From positions 1-21,667 of the IMG/VR virus record IMGVR_UViG_3300021376_000414: a DNA stretch of 21,667 nt; one strand, 5' to 3'. Below are positions 1,805-18,214 of the stretch, piece after piece. This DNA is from a virus. A program made the translations under genes and the position numbers. Positions within the stretch are counted from its first letter, which is position 1. Each line of letters begins with the position of its first letter. The notes below the pieces were generated by a model. It was not told the origin of the DNA and made no database searches. It saw only the letters and a program-made list of their open reading frames with translations.

Positions 1805-2488
1805 TTAACTTAAACTTGCCCCCAACAACCGCTCACTGCCGAGCTGTTGGTTGAGCAGCAGCACGCCGGCTTCAAAATGCACTGGCTGGATGTGGTCGGG
1901 CAGTTTAAGGCCGTAGCGCAGCAGCGGCCGGTCTACATCGTGCAGCTCCACGCAAGCACCGCGTGGCTGGCCTTTGACTGCCAAAAACCCGCGCAGATTC
2001 TGCCCCTCCCAGCTGGGGGCCACCACCACCGTCTGCTGATCGTCCGACACCAAAGCCCGCACCTCGGGCAGCTCAGCAGGTTGCGCCGCTTGGTGCACCA
2101 CCTCCCGCCAAATGGCAATCAGCAGCGACGGCAGCTTCTGCTCATGGCGCAAGGCCAAACAGACATGGGCTACCACCGGCGGCAGTGCGTCACTATCGTG
2201 GCGCCCTGCTGAACGGAAGAACTGCCAGTCTTGGTGCGTGGTGGGCTTGGTCTTTTTCTGATCGCGGTTGATGTTGAACAGCAGACTGCAGACCTGCGCC
2301 CCCTGCAGCTCCATCAGCTGCAGCTCTTGGCGCTGCTGCTCCAGCAACTGCCGATGAGCAGCCAGCACCACCGTGACCCGCTCCTGGCCAAAGCTGCGGC
2401 GATCAAATTGGCCGGGGTAGGCGCGGCACAACGCCCAGAACAGGGCGGCCCAATCTATGCAGCTCGGTGTCCAGTCCCCGGCCGCCGC
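1805..2488 (-). CDS. frameshift extension of the tail assembly chaperone (T domain)
   Basis: This frame has no ATG or GTG near its beginning; only a TTG at 2431 could start it alone. It is open from just upstream of the slippery heptamer. A -1 slip at 2494-2488 joins residue 177 of the preceding protein to AAAGDWTPSCIDWAALFWAL and onward, giving a fusion of about 404 aa. The extension is a 227-residue domain with GQERVTVVLAAHRQLLEQQR, KKTKPTTHQDWQFFRSAG and PPVVAHVCLALRHEQKLPSL. It looks helical first and mixed later. In lambda the equivalent gpGT fusion links the chaperone to the tail tube. The frame ends with TAA at 1805-1807. Confidence 0.8.
   Translation of the reverse strand, partial: AAAGDWTPSCIDWAALFWALCRAYPGQFDRRSFGQERVTVVLAAHRQLLEQQRQELQLMELQGAQVCSLLFNINRDQKKTKPTTHQDWQFFRSAGRHDSDALPPVVAHVCLALRHEQKLPSLLIAIWREVVHQAAQPAELPEVRALVSDDQQTVVVAPSWEGQNLRGFLAVKGQPRGACVELHDVDRPLLRYGLKLPDHIQPVHFEAGVLLLNQQLGSERLLGASLS
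1813..1820 (-). repeat. junction motif GGCAAGTT, copy 2
   Basis: The octamer lies in the last codons of the frameshift extension, followed by TAAGTTAA, 18 bases before the next GTG start. Confidence 0.5.
2444..2486 (-). other. possible frameshift-stimulating stem-loop
   Basis: GGCGGCC at 2486-2480 can pair perfectly with GGCCGCC at 2450-2444, giving a 7-bp all-GC stem with a 29-base loop right after the slippery site. The spacer is only one base, shorter than the usual 5-9, so a melted lower stem or a pseudoknot would be needed for the classical geometry. Confidence 0.4.
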
Positions 2489-3018
2489 TTTTTTATCTCG
2501 TCTTCAGACGGTGGCGCCACGCTGTCGGGTTCGGCGCTGGTCCGCTCCTGCTCAAAGAAAGCAAAAAGGGCATCCATCAACGGCTGCGGCAGAGCCATCG
2601 TGTCGGCCACCGCCCAGTCGGGTCGATCCAGTCGGTGACGCACTAAGGCGGTCACGCTGGCCAACATGCGCTCGCGGCCGATTTGAATGTAGGTGCGGGT
2701 CAGCTCGGCAATCTCCGGCAGGTAGCGCAGCCTGATCGCCTCCTGCTCAGGCGTCATGTCACGGCCCACCGCAGCCGCCTCCACTAAGGCAAAGGCCTCC
2801 AGGATGCTGATCTCTTGCTCAGCGCTCATGCGCTGCGCCAGCTTGGCCGCAACGACTACAGCAGTGTCGCTCTCACCGGTCAAGTCACTAACGGTGATTA
2901 CCTCCGCCACCTGCAGGGAGCCCAACACCGGCAGCTCCAGCACGCCCGTTTCTTTGTTGCCAACCCGCTGATTGGTGCGTTTCGGCGGCGCAATAACGAA
3001 GGGAAGATCAATGCTCAT
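2455..3018 (-). CDS. putative tail assembly chaperone, unshifted product (gpG-like)
   Basis: This 187-aa protein begins MSIDLPFVIAPPKRTNQRVG and contains a compact helical domain (LAQRMSAEQEISILEAFALV, later YLPEIAELTRTYIQIGRERM). It then has LDRPDWAVADTMALPQPLMD and ALFAFFEQERTSAE. A short helical protein ending in an acidic tail with a slippery site near its 3' end is the hallmark of lambda gpG-type chaperones, which bind the tape measure during tail assembly. In the zero frame translation ends KKRRPGTGHRAA at the TAG at 2457-2455. A fraction of ribosomes is expected to slip at A AAA AAG (2494-2488) into the next frame. The ATG overlaps the previous stop by four bases. Confidence 0.72.
   Translation of the reverse strand: MSIDLPFVIAPPKRTNQRVGNKETGVLELPVLGSLQVAEVITVSDLTGESDTAVVVAAKLAQRMSAEQEISILEAFALVEAAAVGRDMTPEQEAIRLRYLPEIAELTRTYIQIGRERMLASVTALVRHRLDRPDWAVADTMALPQPLMDALFAFFEQERTSAEPDSVAPPSEDEIKKRRPGTGHRAA
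2488..2494 (-). promoter_or_regulatory. -1 ribosomal frameshift slippery site A AAA AAG
   Basis: On the coding strand the zero frame reads GAG ATA AAA AAG CGG. The heptamer A AAA AAG fits the X XXY YYZ rule exactly and is among the most efficient bacterial slippery sequences. After slipping back one base the frame reads GCG GCG GCC, which opens the 227-residue downstream frame. The site lies 10 codons before the zero-frame stop, the usual arrangement in tail chaperone genes. Confidence 0.85.
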
Positions 3019-3713
3019 GCGCCCAGGCCGTAGTTGATTTTGTCAAGGGTGCTCATGCCATGCAGGCTGCCGGTGGTCAGGTTGCCGCTGCCGCGCATCC
3101 CGCCGCCGTGGCCGCTGGAGGTCGGGGCGAAGAAATGGCCATAAACCGGGTGGCTCTTGAGCTGCTCCAAGTAAGCCACCGGCGTCAGTTGATCGCCGTT
3201 ATCGGTCAACATCGGCTCGCCGTTGGCGTTAATCACCACCACATCACCGGCTTCAGAGACCTTGAAACGGGAACCCACAGCGCCCATCAGGGCATCGAAA
3301 TAGGTGGTGCCATCCTCAGCCCCGCCACTGCGCCCACCAGCGGCTTGGAAGGCATTGGCGAGAGCTTGCTTGCGGTAGAGCTCGGACTTTTCCGCTAGCG
3401 CTTCCGCCAGCTTCTGGTCTTTGATCTTGACCTGCTGCAGGACTTCGGCCCTTGCGGCTTCAACTTCTTCTTTAACGCGCTGCTCCGCCTGCAGGCGCAG
3501 ACGCTCCTCTCGCTCTTTGGATTCGGTAAAGCTGCGCTGCTGATCCGCATCCATCAGGCGCTCCATTGCCTTTTTGTCGCGCTCAGCGGCCTTCAACTGT
3601 GCGCGCAGCTTTTGCAGCGTCCGCTCCAGAACAGCCTCGTCTTGTTCATCGACTGCAGGTGCTTCGGCGGCCTCAGGCGCTACAGGCTGCAGCTCCTCAG
3701 TGGTTTCGCTCAT
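3015..3713 (-). CDS. scaffold-like coiled-coil protein
   Basis: This 232-aa protein looks like a capsid scaffolding protein. An acidic N-terminus (TTEELQPVAPEAAEAPAVDE) is followed by a long charged coiled coil (about residues 26-115). A globular C-terminal part follows with FDALMGAVGSRFKVSEAGDV, then VINANGEPMLTDNGDQLTPV, AYLEQLKSHPVYGHFF and a glycine-rich SSGHGGGMRGSGN tail. This arrangement is typical of scaffolds in several phage groups, where the gene usually precedes the major capsid gene. Here it is instead followed by the chaperone-like pair, so its role is uncertain. The ATG at 3713 follows a 39-base gap. The stop overlaps the next ATG as ATGA. Confidence 0.7.
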   Translation of the reverse strand: MSETTEELQPVAPEAAEAPAVDEQDEAVLERTLQKLRAQLKAAERDKKAMERLMDADQQRSFTESKEREERLRLQAEQRVKEEVEAARAEVLQQVKIKDQKLAEALAEKSELYRKQALANAFQAAGGRSGGAEDGTTYFDALMGAVGSRFKVSEAGDVVVINANGEPMLTDNGDQLTPVAYLEQLKSHPVYGHFFAPTSSGHGGGMRGSGNLTTGSLHGMSTLDKINYGLGA

Positions 3714-5096: not shown

Positions 5097-5235
5097 GGGC
5101 CTTGTAGGCAATCATTTGGGCCTGCATACGCATATTTAGTGCAATTCGATTTGCATCGACCTGATCTTGTAAGCGATGCCGCAATGGTTCAATGCCGCCA
5201 TCTCTTACCGTCACATTGACTTTTACAGCATCCAT
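5089..5235 (-). CDS. very small hypothetical protein, 48 aa
   Basis: This short gene starts MDAVKVNVTVRDGGIEPLRH and ends MRMQAQMIAYKARD. Its ATG at 5235 shares one base with the stop of the 231-aa gene (TGATG), and its stop at 5089 overlaps the start region of the following gene. It fills what would otherwise be the largest gap in the tail block. It is basic, with a short strand followed by a helix (PLRHRLQDQVDANRIALNMR). Function unknown; tail genes of this size can encode small baseplate or assembly proteins. Confidence 0.6.
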   Translation of the reverse strand: MDAVKVNVTVRDGGIEPLRHRLQDQVDANRIALNMRMQAQMIAYKARD

Positions 5236-5930
5236 CAGTCGTTGACCGCCAGCTTCACGCTATAGCCGATTGTCTGCCCATTGCTGACGGTCACCATGCT
5301 GCTTTCGGTGAGCACCCCATAGATGCTGCCGGCACACTTGCGCAACCGCAGCGTTCCGCTGCCGGTGCTGGTGATGTTGATTTTGTTAGCGCTGCCCACG
5401 GAGGCGCTGCTGTGTAGGGTGATTGTTGAGCTGGTGACGCTTTTAACGTAATAGAGGCTGCCAGCCGTCAGGCCGCCGGGAAGGGTGCCGCCGCTGTCTG
5501 CTGTCACAGTGACGGCATTGCCATCACTGAGGCCATGGCTGGCCACGGTGATCACATCGGTAGCAGGGTCCACGGCGCTGCTGGCCGTCAGAGCGCCGCC
5601 GGCCTGACTATCGGCCGCTGCATCAATTAACAGCACCACATGCGTATAGAGCAGGCTGCCGCCCGTGGCGCTGAACTCCACCGAAACAGGCGCCTGCTCA
5701 TAGCGAGTGTTGACGGAGCTAAAGCTGCCACCGGTCAGAGCTGCACTCTGAAAGCGCGCGTAGCCGTTGGCGCCCCCCACCAGCTCATACTGCAACCAGC
5801 TGGCGATGTCCGCATCAACGACTGGTGCACTGACGGCATTGACCAGGGCAGCGGTGAGCACCTTGCCGCTGTAGGCCGCAGCCATCACCCGTGACAACTC
5901 GGCTTGCGTTAGTGCGCTGGTTACTGCCAT
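5235..5930 (-). CDS. tail protein, long paralogue with inserted beta domain, 231 aa
   Basis: This protein matches the preceding gene at both ends. WLQYELVGGANGYARFQ corresponds to the WFPYLLAGSF block, VSVEFSATGGSLLYTHVVLL to the LSFQL block, and IYGVLTESSMVTVSNGQTIG to the FVGVIHESS block. Between the second and third blocks lies an extra 80 or so residues (about 117-197). These contain TDVITVASHGLSDGNAVTVT, GTLPGGLTAGSLYYVKSVT and NITSTGSGTLRL. This is a small beta domain that I know as a recurrent cassette in phage tail and fibre proteins. The ATG at 5930 is preceded by a 27-base gap carrying the GGCAAGTT motif. The stop overlaps the ATG of a 48-aa gene. Confidence 0.72.
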   Translation of the reverse strand: MAVTSALTQAELSRVMAAAYSGKVLTAALVNAVSAPVVDADIASWLQYELVGGANGYARFQSAALTGGSFSSVNTRYEQAPVSVEFSATGGSLLYTHVVLLIDAAADSQAGGALTASSAVDPATDVITVASHGLSDGNAVTVTADSGGTLPGGLTAGSLYYVKSVTSSTITLHSSASVGSANKINITSTGSGTLRLRKCAGSIYGVLTESSMVTVSNGQTIGYSVKLAVND

Positions 5931-5957: not shown

Positions 5958-6404
5958 CTAGAGCCATTTAGCTGTCAAATCCAGCCTATAGGTCTTGGTT
6001 TGGCCGGTGTTCAACGTGATGGGAGAAGATTCATGGATCACTCCAACAAATGGCGAGAGATAGGTGGGCTGACCAGCTGCAACAGCTGGCCGCTGAACTG
6101 GTATTGCAAAAATTACAATGTCTGTGTAGGTAACAGACTGACTGTAACTGAGCTGAAAGCTTAACTGCTGCAGTTGAGCCAAGAGCACGTTTGTGGAGTT
6201 ATAAGAACTACTGCCGGCTGTCAAAAACAAATCAAAGCTTCCGGCTAAAAGATAGGGAAACCAATCGGATAAATTGCTAGATGCAGATGCTGGAGGCGTT
6301 GCGCCAGAGGTGTTAGCCAAGGCGGCAACAATCAAAGCGCCTTCAAAGACATACCAAATTGCAGCCCTAGCAGCCTCTCGGCTAGCCGTTAGTGTGGCAG
6401 GCAT
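5958..6404 (-). CDS. tail protein, short paralogue, 148 aa
   Basis: This is the shorter member of a paralogous pair. It begins MPATLTASREAARAAIWYVF and contains WFPYLLAGSFDLFL (residues 48-61), LSFQLSYSQSVTYTDIVIFA (81-100) and FVGVIHESSPITLNTGQTKT (119-138). The same three blocks occur in order in the next gene. It is probably a minor tail or baseplate component. It begins 14 bases after the stop of the 800-aa gene, with only a weak ribosome-binding site. Its stop is followed immediately by the GGCAAGTT junction motif. Base composition is lower in GC than the paralogue. Confidence 0.68.
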   Translation of the reverse strand: MPATLTASREAARAAIWYVFEGALIVAALANTSGATPPASASSNLSDWFPYLLAGSFDLFLTAGSSSYNSTNVLLAQLQQLSFQLSYSQSVTYTDIVIFAIPVQRPAVAAGQPTYLSPFVGVIHESSPITLNTGQTKTYRLDLTAKWL

Positions 6405-9570: not shown

Positions 9571-11868
9571 TTACCGAGAAGTCCCACTCACCGCTGGTGA
9601 GTTGCCTCGGGCGATGCCACCCGTACCGTTGAGAGTGACATTGACGGTTGCCTGCTTGCCAGTGTTGGTAGCGATCTGCGAGAGGTAGGTGTTCATCTGG
9701 GAGAACTGCTGATTGCCGTCAATCACGGTGTTGACCTGCGTTTGGAAAGACGTGGAGAGATCACCGCGCGCCTCTGAGGCACCCTGCAGCTGGTTTCTAA
9801 AGTTCTGCGCTGAAACCGCTGCAGCGTCTGCGTAGCCGGCTTGCTCGCTGAGCTGCCTGTTGACATCGCGTTGCAGCTGCGCCTGCTGCTCGGCGCTGGC
9901 GTTCTGCGCCTGACCGTTGAGAGCAATCAAGCGCTCCTGGCCCAATCGTTCACGGGCTACGGCCTGCTGTTCGCCTAGCAGTTGTTGACGCAGGCCGCCA
10001 AGCGCTTGCTCCTCGCTGTTCTGCTTACGGATTAGATCAAGGTTCTGCTGCGCCAGCTCCACATTGCGCTGTGTTTCAGGGGTGTTCTTCTCGTTATTGG
10101 CCATCTGCGCTTGGATCAATGCGATCTGCGCTTCAATCTCTGCGCGCTTGCCCGCTGCAGCGACTTTCTGCTGTTCAAACGCCAGGCTGGCCTGCTGACT
10201 GCCCTGCTCGGCCACTAGAGCGCGTGCCTTGAGGTCAAACTCGGCCACGGTCTGGTTGAACTTAGCTTGGCCAAATTTCTTCTCTATTTGTTTGCGCTGC
10301 GCGTCGTTTTTAGCTAAGTCCTGGGCCTGCTTCATCTCCTGATCCAACAGGGTCTTGATCGTGTCGGAGCGACTAAGGGCGCCTTGTGCGCGGGCTGCAT
10401 TGATCTCGCCAACCAGCTTGTGCTCCTGTGCGTAGAAGCCAAGGCGTGCTTCCTGCCCCTGCAGGTTGCTCTTCTCAATCACTAGGGATTTGAGCTGCTG
10501 GTTTTGACGGTTTAACAGCGCTTTCTTTTCTGCCGCCGCGTGTTGCGCAGCGGCGGCGTTGGCTTCAAGCTGCTTGACCTTGGTGCGGTCGGTTTCAGCA
10601 CCGAGCTTGGCCTGACTGCCACTAGCGCCTTCAATGGCTTTGCCCACCGCCGCAGCGGTGCCAGCCCCGACGGCCAAGGCAGCCGCTACCTTAATGGCAC
10701 CGGCGGGGTTCATGATCGACTGCGCAATGGCCGCTGCCACGGCCAGCCCCTTTTGTGCTGCAGTCGCAATTTTGGTGGCCTTGGCGATCAGCATGTAGGT
10801 GCCCACTGCGCCGCCAAGACCCGCCATCACCGCCACCAGCGTCTTGGTGTTATCGGCGGCAAACTTCACTGCACCGGCCAAGTTCTTGGCCGCTCCCGCA
10901 ACAGTTCCCAGCAAGGTGTCACCAAGGGCCCTCTGCAAGTCCTCCCAGGCGTTGTTGAGCCGCGCAAACTGCTGCGCCGTTGTCTCTGCCCCACCACCGC
11001 CTGCGGTCAATTCATTGAGACCCTTAGTTAATGCCGGGAAGAAGTCCCCCGCTGCTAGCTGCCCGGACTCCACCAGGCCGATTAGACTCTGCTGACTGAT
11101 GCCTAGGCCTTTCGCAGTGGCGGCCAAGGCAATCGGCATGCGATCACCCAACTGCCCGCGCAGCTCCTCCATCTGCACGGTGCCCTTGGAGGCGACCTGC
11201 TGCAGCGCTTGCAGGCTGCCACTGACTGCATCATTGCTCAGGCCTAAGGATTGACCTGCCTTGGCCACCGCAGCAAAGACCGCCTGCTGTTGCTGCATGG
11301 GAATCCCAGCAGCGCTGGCTGCAGCGGTAAAGCTGCCGAAATCGTTGGAGAGCTGCTTGTAGGAAAGGCCCAGCTGATCGGCAACGCCCCTGGTGAACTT
11401 GAGCGCGTCCGCTGCACCGCCACTGCCCAGGGTGTTTGTCAGCTTGCGGGTGATCGTCTCAAACTCCACCGACTCTTGCACAGCACCCTTGATGCCAGCC
11501 GCCACGCCCGCAACGCTCAGCCCAATGCCCGCTGCATTGGCCAGGCCGCCCAGCCCTCCGCCACCTCCGCCACCTCCGCCACGGAGGCCTGCCTCGGCCT
11601 TCAGGCGCTCTTGCGTGGCACTGCGAATGTCCTTCTGCAGCTGCTTGTATTTCTTGCTGCCGATCTCAACCAGCCGGATCTCCTCATTCAGGCTGTTGAT
11701 CCGTATATCCAGGGACGCCAGCGTGCCCTTGCCAGGGGGACCGCCAAGAGAATCCTTGACCTTCTGCCCGGCGCCCTGCGCCATGGAGACTATTTTGTCA
11801 ATACCAGCCCTGAAAAAGCTGGTGTCTAGCAGGACATCAAAGGTTGCCCGTCCCAGCGACTCCGCCAC
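9571..11868 (-). CDS. tape measure protein
   Basis: This 765-aa protein sets tail length and is ejected with DNA. The characteristic conserved block of tape measure proteins is present (GTVQMEELRGQLGDRMPIAL, residues about 229-248), preceded by KLTNTLGSGGAADALKFT and AVFAAVAKAGQSLGLS. A hydrophobic stretch at roughly 345-410 (LVAVMAGLGGAVGTYMLI and following) is a probable membrane-interacting segment. Residues 420-700 are Gln/Ala/Glu-rich helix and coiled coil. Nine consecutive glycines (97-105) are encoded by a short GC-rich repeat near 11554-11583. At about 0.15 nm per residue the tail would be about 115 nm. The GTG start at 11868 follows TAGGACGAC. The stop abuts the next ATG (TAAATG). 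Confidence 0.95.
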   Translation of the reverse strand: MAESLGRATFDVLLDTSFFRAGIDKIVSMAQGAGQKVKDSLGGPPGKGTLASLDIRINSLNEEIRLVEIGSKKYKQLQKDIRSATQERLKAEAGLRGGGGGGGGGLGGLANAAGIGLSVAGVAAGIKGAVQESVEFETITRKLTNTLGSGGAADALKFTRGVADQLGLSYKQLSNDFGSFTAAASAAGIPMQQQQAVFAAVAKAGQSLGLSNDAVSGSLQALQQVASKGTVQMEELRGQLGDRMPIALAATAKGLGISQQSLIGLVESGQLAAGDFFPALTKGLNELTAGGGGAETTAQQFARLNNAWEDLQRALGDTLLGTVAGAAKNLAGAVKFAADNTKTLVAVMAGLGGAVGTYMLIAKATKIATAAQKGLAVAAAIAQSIMNPAGAIKVAAALAVGAGTAAAVGKAIEGASGSQAKLGAETDRTKVKQLEANAAAAQHAAAEKKALLNRQNQQLKSLVIEKSNLQGQEARLGFYAQEHKLVGEINAARAQGALSRSDTIKTLLDQEMKQAQDLAKNDAQRKQIEKKFGQAKFNQTVAEFDLKARALVAEQGSQQASLAFEQQKVAAAGKRAEIEAQIALIQAQMANNEKNTPETQRNVELAQQNLDLIRKQNSEEQALGGLRQQLLGEQQAVARERLGQERLIALNGQAQNASAEQQAQLQRDVNRQLSEQAGYADAAAVSAQNFRNQLQGASEARGDLSTSFQTQVNTVIDGNQQFSQMNTYLSQIATNTGKQATVNVTLNGTGGIARGNSPAVSGTSR

Positions 11869-12705: not shown

Positions 12706-13176
12706 TCAGGCCGGGGCAGTTGCTTCGGTGTAGGTGTAGGAGCCGTAGCCCTGCAGGGTGAAGCTCACGGTGGCGATACCGCCGGCCTCAATCGACTCAG
12801 AAAAGTCGGTGATGATGCCGATGCCCGCGTGCTTCTCCACGGTGGCCACCGAGGAGCCGGGGTCAGGGGATTCCCTATACCACTTGACGTATTGACCAGT
12901 GGGAGCATCGAGGGCCGCGTCTTTCAGCAGCTTGTAGCCCGCATCCACCGTGTCCAAGTTCATGGTCATCGGGATGCTGTAGCTCTGCGAGGTAGCCACA
13001 GCCTTTTGGAAACCACCACTGGTGCCGTAATCGGTCACCGTTTCGGTTTCGGTGGAGCCTTCAATCCCCGCGTTCGTGAGGTTGAGGATTTCAGTCAGGC
13101 TGGTGCTGCTGGTGGGGTGGCTGTCGTTGGCCGTGTTGGCGTCGGCCATCCAGAGCCGATACCCGATGGCAGACAT
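12706..13176 (-). CDS. major tail tube protein
   Basis: This protein of about 156 aa (MSAIGYRLWMADANTAND onward) has the pattern of siphophage tail tube subunits: a serine/threonine-rich N-terminus, LTEILNLTNAGIEGSTETE (near residues 28-46), a middle reading QSYSIPMTMNLDTVDAGYKLL, and a C-terminal beta segment GGIATVSFTLQGYGSYTY typical of a tube beta-barrel. It polymerises into the tube around the tape measure. The start is ambiguous. The ATG at 13176 is the conventional choice, but a TTG at 13185 sits eight bases after a strong AGGAG and may be the true start. It is three genes upstream of the tape measure, as expected for a tail module. Confidence 0.78.
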   Translation of the reverse strand: MSAIGYRLWMADANTANDSHPTSSTSLTEILNLTNAGIEGSTETETVTDYGTSGGFQKAVATSQSYSIPMTMNLDTVDAGYKLLKDAALDAPTGQYVKWYRESPDPGSSVATVEKHAGIGIITDFSESIEAGGIATVSFTLQGYGSYTYTEATAPA

Positions 13177-13213
13177 AAAGGCCAAGGTGGGCGCTCCTAA
13201 AGCGATCTCACTA

Positions 13214-13221
13214 AACTTGCC
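13214..13221 (-). repeat. junction motif GGCAAGTT, copy 4
   Basis: The octamer starts one base after the TGA stop of the connector candidate and lies upstream of the tail tube gene and its AGGAG ribosome-binding site. Variants GGCAACTT (11898-11891, before the tape measure) and GGCAATTT (17576-17569, before the portal) occupy the same kind of position. Confidence 0.5.
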
Positions 13222-13222
13222 G

Positions 13223-13594
13223 TCAGGAGCGCAGCAGCTCAGCCTGGCCCAACTGTTTGGCGTAGAGGTTGGAGAAGCGGCCGTCGTAGCCCAGGGCAAG
13301 CGAGAGCTGCTCGCGCCAGTAGCCCTGCTGGGTAGTGATGCCGGCCAACTTGGCGGTGGGGTTGCCGGGCTGCCACTCCAACACGTCTGCGCGAATCAGG
13401 CCCAGATCCTCTGAGGCCTTGGCTTCAAAGGCGGTCTCCAGGGCGTTGAGCTTGGTGATGCTGGTTTGGCTGGTGGTGATCGAAGCGGCAGAGGCTTCGC
13501 CCATCAGCACGTCCAGGTGATCAAGGGCGATGGTGGTGGCTGGGATGGCGAGGTGACGGCGGATGGCCTCGCGGTCAGTGGAAAGCCAGGGCAT
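13223..13594 (-). CDS. putative head-tail connector protein, 123 aa
   Basis: The N-terminus reads MPWLSTDREAIRRHLAIPATTIAL, followed by a helical middle (SITKLNALETAFEAKA) and a C-terminal part with YWREQLSLALGYDG. The helical make-up and the location between the minor head protein and the tail tube suit a head-tail connector (adaptor), but no motif proves it. The ATG at 13594 has a good ribosome-binding site (AAGG, seven bases upstream). The gene is GC-rich again, unlike the two preceding genes. It begins 30 bases after the candidate immunity gene. Confidence 0.6.
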   Translation of the reverse strand: MPWLSTDREAIRRHLAIPATTIALDHLDVLMGEASAASITTSQTSITKLNALETAFEAKASEDLGLIRADVLEWQPGNPTAKLAGITTQQGYWREQLSLALGYDGRFSNLYAKQLGQAELLRS

Positions 13595-13624: not shown

Positions 13625-13828
13625 TTATACAGGCCAAATGTCATTCACCGCATCAAAATCTTCATCTGTTTCAGCTAGAACCAAAAAAACTTCCACCAAC
13701 TCTGTGATTTTATTCCGTTCAGTTGTGTCGGCTTGATCGTACAAATATTTGAGCTGCCTGAATCGAGCCGCCGAAAACTTTTCAGCACTGGCGACCCTGA
13801 GAGCCTCTTCCAATAGCGGCGTGTTCAT
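13625..13828 (-). CDS. small acidic protein, candidate immunity protein for the MuF toxin
   Basis: This 67-aa protein is acidic and largely helical. It begins MNTPLLEEALRVASAEKFSA and ends ETDEDFDAVNDIWPV. I know of no family match. Its ATG (13828) overlaps the MuF-peptidase stop as ATGA, so the two are translationally coupled. It shares the AT-rich composition of the MuF C-terminal region and not that of the GC-rich connector gene after it. Small size, acidity, position immediately after a putative toxin domain and shared composition are the usual marks of an immunity gene in polymorphic toxin loci. The function is inferred from context only. Confidence 0.72.
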   Translation of the reverse strand: MNTPLLEEALRVASAEKFSAARFRQLKYLYDQADTTERNKITELVEVFLVLAETDEDFDAVNDIWPV

Positions 13829-16068
13829 GATTCTAAATACTCATAAAGGCTGCGTCTGATTCGATCATAAAGCTTAGGTCGCATTTTTTTAAGGGTTGCA
13901 GGCTGGGTAACAAAAGCGACAAATCCTTCTGCAAAGGCTTCTAGGTCATTTGTACCACTGTACGTGGTGAGTTTTTTGTCCGCACGGAGTCTGATGCCAA
14001 GCTTATCATCTTTAGTCTCATCCATAAATTGAACGACATGCCCGATTTCATGAATAAGCGTTGACATAACGCTTCTAGCGGCCCGCTCGTCAGCATGGCT
14101 GAAAGACCACACCTCCTCTCCGTTTTCTATTTTCTGCAAGACCTTAGAGACATGATCCGCTAAGTCTTTGGCAGAAAAGGCCTGCCCTTTTAACAGGTCT
14201 CCTCTTTTGACAGAAACAAAATTGTAGTTCTTGAAAGCCTGGCCATTGGCATCTGCCGGCGGCAGCATGAATCGCTTTATGTATTTGTCAATTTGAGATT
14301 CATAGTGCTCGTGGATTTTTTCGCCTGCTATTTTGTCCCTTAATTTAGCGCCGATAAAGTCCGCACCCTGCCCCGTTCGTTGTCGAAGAACTGCAGCCTT
14401 AAGCTGGTCGCTTTTCATAAACACCTCCCATCTTTCAGCTGGTGTCATCTTTCCTGTCAAGTGCACCGCTGTACCGCTCTTCTCCACAAACTGAAGCATT
14501 GCCCTGGCGTTTTTACCTGCTTCACCTGGCTGCGCCATCAGTGACTCAAATGCTTTAGTTATGTCAGCAGTTTTTAGGCCAGCCTGTGCAGTGGCATTGG
14601 CGACAGAGAAGTTAGCTTGAATAATTGCTTCAACGCTCTTGCCTAGTTTTGGTGCAAAATCTTTGGCCTTTTCAATCAGGGCAGCCTGCTCTTTGATTTT
14701 GGCTGCCTGCTCTAGCGAATCAATTTGACGCTGCAAATACCCTCTTCGCTCTTTTAGTTTTTTGTAGGGCTGCATAGCTTTTATTTGCATGTCATCCATG
14801 AGCTGCTCAAGCTCGTCAAGACGCGCTTCAAGTTTCGGCTCTCTAAATCCCTGTTTTGCAAACAAATTACTTATACGCAACATTTCGCTTTCATATTCCG
14901 CAAACTGCTTATTAGTCTTTTTAAGATTGTCATATTTCCATGGCGATTGGGCGTCCAGCTTTTTAAGCCTTTGATTAACAAGATCCAGCTGCTCAGCAGG
15001 ACTGAGCGCATTTTTTTTATTAAGTCTTTTGTTTGTTGCAGCACTTTCAACAGGCGGCGGGGTCCAGAGCGGTTTCGGTGCTGCCTTTAGCCCCAGCGCT
15101 TTCTCAAACGGGCTCGGCTTGTCGATTGGTTCTTTCCCCGCTGCCTTTAATTCCGCCAGCACCTCCGCCCGTGCCTTGGCCTCCTCCTGCAGATCCACCA
15201 GCCCTACTTCAAGCCAACGTGGATCCCAGGGCGACACTGTGCATCTGCAGTTTGGGTGCGCTGGTATCACCACCTCCCGCAGCAGATACACCCGCCCGTG
15301 ACGAGGGGCGCAATAGCCACATGTGCGGCTACTGCCCACCGCCTGCCATTGCACCTGCTGAATGCCCTCCGCCTCATACCGAATCTTGGTGCCCTCCAGC
15401 ATCGCGGCAGCCATCTCCGTGCGAGCAATCACCTGGGCGCGGCTGCTGGTCAATGCCAACGACTGCTTCAGGGTGCCGCTTAGCTGCCGCCAGCTGTCAC
15501 CCTGGGCTAGGTGAAACTCCACTGCGCCGATGATCCGCCCGCGCAGGTCCACCTCCACCAGGCGGTTCAGTGAGGCAAACGCCTGACTGCCCGTGGCGCC
15601 TGCGGCGTAACCGCTTAAGGCGTTCTGCCGTTGCGCTGCTGCCAGCAATGCCGAGGGGTTTTGCTGCGCCATCGCCGGGGTCAAGATCCCCTCCGGGTTG
15701 GCGGTAGCCGATGCAAACAACTCCGCCACCTGCTCGGTGCTTTGCGCCGTTGCCTGTTGCTGCACGCTGTTGAGCTGCGCCAAGCCCCAAAGGCCACCAG
15801 CCTGCCGCCCATCCAGCAGGGCCTTGGCAACGGTCAACTGCAACTCCGGCGGTAGGCGCAGCGTTTGCAGCTCTTGGCCTAACTGCTCCCTCAGGATCAA
15901 CAACCGCCGCAGCGGAAAGACATCGCCACCCTCCTGCGCTCGCTTGTAGGCCGTTTCAATGCGACCCTCTAAGGCGCGATAGGCGCCAGTAAGGCCCTCT
16001 ACGATGTCGCGCTCATAGGGGCCCAACAGGGCATCACTAAGCCGCTCCCAGCTTTCGGCTGGATCCAT
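13825..16068 (-). CDS. MuF-type minor head protein with C-terminal zinc-metallopeptidase (putative toxin) domain
   Basis: This 747-aa protein is much longer than plain MuF/SPP1 gp7 head morphogenesis proteins. Residues about 150-283 form the MuF domain: IARTEMAAAMLEGTK (214-228), then the paired cysteines TCGYCAPRHGRVYLL (249-263) and IPAHPNCRCTVSPW (268-281). Residues 345-600 are lysine- and glutamate-rich, with long coiled-coil stretches (365-470). The C-terminal domain carries LIHEIGHVVQ (671-680), an HExxH zinc site with His673, Glu674 and His677. LEAFAEGFVAF (709-719) follows, offering Glu710 or Glu714 as a third ligand. DNA encoding residues after about 345 is clearly AT-richer than the GC-rich first third, suggesting separate acquisition. 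MuF proteins with variable C-terminal effector domains are known phage polymorphic toxins. A capsid-processing protease is the alternative reading. It overlaps the next small gene by ATGA. Confidence 0.85.
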   Translation of the reverse strand: MDPAESWERLSDALLGPYERDIVEGLTGAYRALEGRIETAYKRAQEGGDVFPLRRLLILREQLGQELQTLRLPPELQLTVAKALLDGRQAGGLWGLAQLNSVQQQATAQSTEQVAELFASATANPEGILTPAMAQQNPSALLAAAQRQNALSGYAAGATGSQAFASLNRLVEVDLRGRIIGAVEFHLAQGDSWRQLSGTLKQSLALTSSRAQVIARTEMAAAMLEGTKIRYEAEGIQQVQWQAVGSSRTCGYCAPRHGRVYLLREVVIPAHPNCRCTVSPWDPRWLEVGLVDLQEEAKARAEVLAELKAAGKEPIDKPSPFEKALGLKAAPKPLWTPPPVESAATNKRLNKKNALSPAEQLDLVNQRLKKLDAQSPWKYDNLKKTNKQFAEYESEMLRISNLFAKQGFREPKLEARLDELEQLMDDMQIKAMQPYKKLKERRGYLQRQIDSLEQAAKIKEQAALIEKAKDFAPKLGKSVEAIIQANFSVANATAQAGLKTADITKAFESLMAQPGEAGKNARAMLQFVEKSGTAVHLTGKMTPAERWEVFMKSDQLKAAVLRQRTGQGADFIGAKLRDKIAGEKIHEHYESQIDKYIKRFMLPPADANGQAFKNYNFVSVKRGDLLKGQAFSAKDLADHVSKVLQKIENGEEVWSFSHADERAARSVMSTLIHEIGHVVQFMDETKDDKLGIRLRADKKLTTYSGTNDLEAFAEGFVAFVTQPATLKKMRPKLYDRIRRSLYEYLES

Positions 16069-17584: not shown

Positions 17585-18214
17585 TTACAACCAACCAGCA
17601 TCCATCTCGTCCTCGCTGTTGTGCAGGTCAAAGTTCCCGAGCTCGTGCCCCATACCAGCGGTGGCACGCAGGTCAAGCTTGAGCTGATCGGTGCTAACGC
17701 CGAGCTTTTGACAGACCTGCTCCATGGTTTCGCCGCGTTCCAACAGGCGCCGCGCTTGCATACCTCGCTGACGCACGGTGCCTGGGGCTTTAAGCCAGAA
17801 GTTGTGGTCGCGTATGTAATGGCGCCACTCGCCAAGGATGAAAGGCAGGGCGATGGTGCTGAACTTAAAGCCGGTGCTGGGGTCGTAGCGGCGAACGGCC
17901 TTGAGCAAGCCAATCAAGCCCAGAGCAAAAAGCTCATCAATTTCAATGCAGCGGTATTTGTGAAACTGCTGCTGGATGATTGCTTTCAGCAGCGGGATGT
18001 GCTTCTGCACCATGCGCTCCTCTGCGCGCCGCTTACGCGGGCAGGTTTCCTTGTACAGGAGTGTGACCGGCCGATCAGTGGATGCTTTGCTGGGTTTGAG
18101 CACTGCCGTGGGCAGAGCAGCTGGCTGCCACGGCGCATCGGGCAGGGTGTCAAAGGCAAAGCTGAGCTGACCCTCCGGGCACTTGCGCTGGCGAGCCCTA
18201 GCCATCACGATCAC
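17585..18214 (-). CDS. phage sigma factor-like protein, regions 2 and 3 only
   Basis: This 209-aa protein resembles a sigma-70 family factor of the alternative (SigB/SigF/SigG-like) type. Region 2 runs from about residue 62 to 140: a helix (MVQKHIPLLKAIIQQQF), then DELFALGLIGLLKAVRRYDP (94-112), then GFKFSTIALPFILGEWRHYIRD (115-136), which is the core-binding and -10 recognition segment. A region 3-like helical part follows (145-185: RQRGMQARRLLERGETMEQV, then LGVSTDQL). The protein ends about 25 residues later in an acidic tail (NSEDEMDAGWL), so there is no room for a normal region 4, the -35-binding helix-turn-helix. I used the GTG at 18214, seven bases after a GGGGG run; ATG at 18205 is the alternative. 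It probably directs RNA polymerase to phage late promoters, perhaps with a partner protein. Confidence 0.82.
   Translation of the reverse strand: MIVMARARQRKCPEGQLSFAFDTLPDAPWQPAALPTAVLKPSKASTDRPVTLLYKETCPRKRRAEERMVQKHIPLLKAIIQQQFHKYRCIEIDELFALGLIGLLKAVRRYDPSTGFKFSTIALPFILGEWRHYIRDHNFWLKAPGTVRQRGMQARRLLERGETMEQVCQKLGVSTDQLKLDLRATAGMGHELGNFDLHNSEDEMDAGWL

Follow-up and report, generated by a model that had tools for sequence, protein, structure and literature searches.

A G/GT-type tail assembly chaperone gene pair, very probably expressed by programmed -1 frameshifting, in a virus fragment and its relatives among cultured cyanophages

Long-tailed phages have a conserved frameshift between the tail genes G and T, and in phage λ the slip that yields G and GT takes place at G GGA AAG. 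The pair usually has the major tail protein gene on one side and the tape-measure gene on the other, a position that is customary and not a necessary feature. In λ, G binds along the tape-measure protein and T binds the tail tube protein, and both then leave (PMC5009743).

Here we analyse a comparable locus on the minus strand of a 21,667-base IMG/VR virus fragment (this whole stretch of DNA is called the window), and conclude from sequence comparisons that it very probably holds a pair of tail assembly chaperone genes of the G/GT kind whose expression relies on programmed -1 ribosomal frameshifting. As in λ, the -1 slip would occur near the 3' end of G, at a heptamer of the same classes, to give a short G and a GT fusion, and the T part is tied to the Phage_tail_T family through its relatives. 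Unlike λ, the window has a G without detectable sequence similarity to λ G, longer proteins, a T part with an additional, predicted C-terminal beta region, and a different gene order. The features of the pair are as follows.

2455..3018, minus strand: gene G, zero-frame product of 187 aa, putative short form of the tail assembly chaperone
2488..2494, minus strand: slippery heptamer A AAA AAG in the G frame, read as GAG ATA AAA AAG CGG
1805..2488, minus strand: T part in the -1 frame, 227 aa plus stop
2429..2431, minus strand: TTG at codon 20 past the slip, where automated gene calling would falsely begin T
2411..2482, minus strand: possible downstream stem GCCGGGG/CCCCGGC, arms 2482-2476 and 2417-2411, not supported as a stimulator

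Gene G begins with an ATG at 3018 that overlaps the preceding gene's stop codon (ATGA), and after the heptamer its frame holds ten sense codons before a TAG stop ending at 2455. A sequence-only reading of this DNA had proposed this arrangement of the zero frame without naming the strand, and its coordinates and frames are right; its product sizes, 187 and about 404 aa, were recomputed as 187 and 404, the computed -1 slip joining 177 residues of G to the 227 of T at EIKK-AAAGDW. The T part is expected to be translated only as the C-terminal portion of this fusion. In the mechanism that we propose, most ribosomes would read G and stop ten codons past the heptamer, while a minority would slip back one base, the P-site AAA and A-site AAG re-pairing as AAA AAA, and go on in the T frame to make GT. 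By analogy with λ, the role of G would be to coat the tape-measure protein and that of the T part to bring in the major tail protein, with both G and GT leaving before the tail is completed. In this scheme the slippage itself, its efficiency, the ratio of the products and their binding partners are what we infer. The window contains 17 heptamers of the form X XXY YYZ in frame within its open reading frames, and only A AAA AAG at 2494-2488 precedes a long -1 frame (227 codons, against 52 for the next longest); because it is the only one of the 17 with this property and is conserved across the family, the site exceeds what chance would give.

To examine that conservation, viral contigs were searched with G and T queries, in part as sub-alignments of the 38-member alignments, and isolates were added by tblastn, giving 126 distinct junctions in which both G and T are recognisable, picked by protein similarity and not by heptamer, and including the isolates P-SS2, S-CBS2, S-CRES1 and S-CRES3. 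At 126 of 126 junctions the second frame is the -1 frame and a slippery heptamer lies in frame inside the overlap, the same pattern having been present in 39 of 39 junctions of a first batch. The sequence-only reading had suggested comparing related phages for both the heptamer and the open -1 frame, with homologues that start the second frame separately as the counter-case; both features are kept throughout, and none of the 126 breaks the pattern. A further 10 loci have a T match with no recognisable G, four of which begin inside or just before T, the remaining six (L232-L237) being distant relatives. No T relative was found in a search of genome contigs.

The heptamer is GGGAAAG at 80 junctions, AAAAAAG at 43 and a variant at three, and thus two types interchange at one site. 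The variants occur once each at that same site, as A AAA AAA in L026 (8522-8528), G GGA AAA in L029 (8549-8555) and G GGA AAC in L035 (5188-5194), and amount to natural experiments on slippery-sequence function in these hosts. Past the heptamer the zero frame continues for anything from no codons to more than 50, and at 25 of the 126 junctions a stop codon follows immediately (examples are L063, L067, L069, L071, L072, L076, L080 and L081), an arrangement that possibly adds a termination pause. These counts also bear on the idea that the second frame arises from transcriptional slippage on a run of A residues, or from a sequencing or assembly error. The window site does contain a run of six As, but at the same place 80 of the 126 relatives have GGGAAAG instead of one homopolymer run, and because of these members polymerase slippage is disfavoured as a general mechanism. 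An error, for its part, is at odds with finding the same architecture in independent contigs and isolates, and we consider the probability of either origin to be next to negligible.

The codon before the heptamer tracks the heptamer type, being ATA or CTA with A heptamers and CTG, TTG or GTG with G heptamers. In the first 39 junctions, which are related sequences and so do not give independent counts, Ile before the heptamer was ATA in 9/9 cases (ATA makes up 8% of Ile codons in these genes), Leu before AAAAAAG was CTA in 6/6 (7% of Leu codons) and Gly was GGA in 21/21 (17% of Gly codons), with Leu before GGGAAAG encoded by CTG or TTG. The base ahead of XXY YYZ occupies the third position of its codon, and these synonymous third bases follow the heptamer type. 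The codon usage therefore indicates that the heptamer itself is under selection.

The same data can be set against the possibility that T is an independent gene, begun from the TTG at 2431 or from another codon, and that the heptamer is incidental. The annotations of P-SS2, S-CBS2, S-CRES1 and S-CRES3 agree with it in listing T as a separate gene, the frameshift being unannotated in all four. The annotated starts, however, remove conserved residues: T is conserved in the -1 frame from its first residues (AxxGxW...DWxxIxW), and these precede any likely start codon. In the window, as the sequence-only reading had observed, the -1 frame is open for 227 residues with no ATG or GTG nearby, the first GTG falling at about codon 39-40 and the first ATG at about codon 58-59. 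That reading had also foreseen the false TTG start, which would indeed drop 19 residues of the T part, some of them conserved (W13 and F17). A slippery heptamer in frame at every junction, and third bases that track it, likewise argue against a separate T gene, and we regard this alternative as extremely unlikely.

The assignment of T as the partner in a G/GT pair rests on a chain of family matches. All 38 T members match phrog_34388, a family with no assigned function. The Pfam family Phage_tail_T (PF06223, the λ T family) was matched by 27 of the 38 at E values up to 1, the best match (6e-6) scoring above the curated cut-off; the T of the window itself gave no direct match to PF06223, and its link runs through these relatives. 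A further link is phrog_337, 'tail protein', a family matched by λ T (4.7e-7) and by T members as well (best 7e-4). In the widest search the distant loci matched phrog_34388 and also, at about 1e-12, Phage_tail_T. The gene upstream of the distant T is phrog_344, 'tail assembly chaperone', in L232 and in L233 and L234 (1e-29 and 4e-22); since the last two are near-identical, these represent two architectures. At the junction these two architectures carry GGGAAAC or AAAAAAC in frame. An hhalign comparison of the T profile with the single λ T sequence returned nothing, and a comparison of the T model with the PDB gave uninformative matches to unrelated chains (Z up to 4.5), with no solved tail chaperone among them.

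G was less informative. It matches no sequence family, hhalign of its profile against the single λ G sequence gave nothing, and a sequence search of solved structures gave no match. Its AF2 model has a mean pLDDT of 83.5 and, when compared with viral folds, produced weak matches to named G or chaperone proteins (E 0.35-0.45). Comparison of the model with the PDB returned ion-channel chains (Z up to 8.0), an uninformative result in which no solved tail chaperone was listed.

Among the cultured phages, P-SS2 has homologues of the window's G (about 30% identity) and T (about 26%) in ORF064 and ORF065, which by position are its G and T genes and are annotated as two separate hypothetical proteins. 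They share the -1 overlap and would give a fusion of 409 aa, but differ from the window pair in using an in-frame G GGA AAG and in their position, 18-19 kb ahead of the tape-measure gene. In the published table of the P-SS2 virion proteome, peptides are listed for ORF061-063 and ORF066-069 and not for ORF064 or ORF065 (PMC2784084), an omission that would fit chaperones leaving the particle; frameshifting is nowhere mentioned in the text of that paper (PMC2784084). S-CBS2 and S-CRES1 (both with AAAAAAG) and S-CRES3 (GGGAAAG) have the same G/T pair as the window, with T annotated 'tail assembly protein' in S-CRES1 and S-CRES3. In the latter two, unlike in the window, the pair is within the tail module, just ahead of genes labelled major tail protein and tape measure, and in S-CBS2 its order relative to the tape-measure gene is the same. 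Taken with the Phage_tail_T, phrog_337 and phrog_344 links, the P-SS2 proteome supports the chaperone identity that the sequence-only reading had proposed for the pair. We found no earlier report of a G/T frameshift in cyanosiphoviruses in the open-access literature.

The position of the pair in the window relative to its presumed partners is best seen from three further genes.

3015..3713, minus strand: scaffold-like gene directly upstream of G (phrog_206, E 7.5e-22)
9571..11868, minus strand: tape-measure protein gene, 765 aa (phrog_2335, E 1.3e-36), presumed client of G/GT
12706..13299, minus strand: major tail protein-like gene (phrog_38654 tail protein, 1.4e-18; phrog_1407 major tail protein, 1.9e-13), its product the presumed partner of the T domain

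The adjacency to the tape-measure gene expected from λ does not hold here: in transcription order the pair comes about 6.6 kb after that gene, directly behind the scaffold-like gene, and so outside the usual interval, in which the two genes between the major tail protein-like and tape-measure genes have no slippery site in frame. The relative G001 has the order tape measure, scaffold, G/T and, about 3 kb further, a probable major capsid gene, and in the clade of the window and G001 the pair seems to be placed between the scaffold and capsid genes. Elsewhere it is upstream of the tape-measure gene, by about 4 kb in L035 and about 2-2.5 kb in the S-CRES phages and S-CBS2, as well as by the longer distance in P-SS2. 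A genuine programmed frameshift could, in principle, make products for another process such as head assembly, and the adjoining scaffold-like gene, the probable capsid gene beyond T in G001 and a G without a recognisable family are each in keeping with this. The links of T to Phage_tail_T and phrog_337, the placement of the S-CRES and S-CBS2 pairs in the tail module and the distance of the pair from scaffold and capsid genes in P-SS2, G012 and G014 all point the other way, and we judge a role outside the tail to be very unlikely. For a tail assembly chaperone pair, we take the displaced position to be a difference in order and not evidence for a different function. It is conceivable, but unlikely, that this lineage moved the pair from the tail module to the scaffold-capsid stretch, uncoupling its dosage and timing from the tape-measure gene, and that GT has another partner, perhaps on the side of the head, through the additional beta region at the C-terminus of T.

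Several other genes also drew our attention. Between the terminase and portal genes of the window, 17585-18214 (minus strand) looks by eye like a sigma-70-type factor (regions 2-3), and P-SS2 too has a sigma factor gene right behind its terminase genes. The product of 13825-16068 (minus strand) is a MuF-type minor head protein whose N-terminal part matches minor head families and whose C-terminal stretch contains HEIGH, a possible metallopeptidase domain. The adjacent proteins of 5235-5930 and 5958-6404 (minus strand) are without a clear family and may, by eye, be a diverged related virion pair. The P-SS2 gene ORF091, labelled 'host specificity protein J' (32102-33952 in L079; 83401-85251 in P-SS2), matches the scaffold family phrog_206 (E 3e-31), and the next gene, ORF092, has 43.5 peptides and is conserved in relatives; it is probably the real major capsid protein.

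We also considered elements flanking the heptamer that might stimulate slippage. The 7-bp GC stem noted in the sequence-only reading is present in the minimum-energy fold, 5 nt past the heptamer, but a stimulatory role for it is not supported: in the window it is no more stable than in shuffled sequences (z +0.80, or -1.1 with other bounds), and its columns are nearly unchanged in close relatives, without covariation, with a pair broken in L002 and L004. Nor is downstream structure general, the family mean z being -1.1 with wide scatter, and the GC stem is thus at most clade-specific. Many relatives have an SD-like GAGGA upstream of the heptamer (median rank 0.12 within the same gene), which the window itself lacks (rank 0.80); the motif could be a by-product of Glu codons.

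The mechanism proposed for this locus is a textbook one, and the value of the finding lies in re-annotation, in a likely function for phrog_34388 and in the unusual placement of the pair. In this phage group a tail-assembly protein that is probably essential has been mis-annotated, and phrog_34388, together with 'hypothetical' genes of cultured cyanophages, gains a likely function. Finally, the junctions form an extensive natural collection, with two heptamer types replacing each other at a single site, which would be useful for work on slippery sequences in these hosts.
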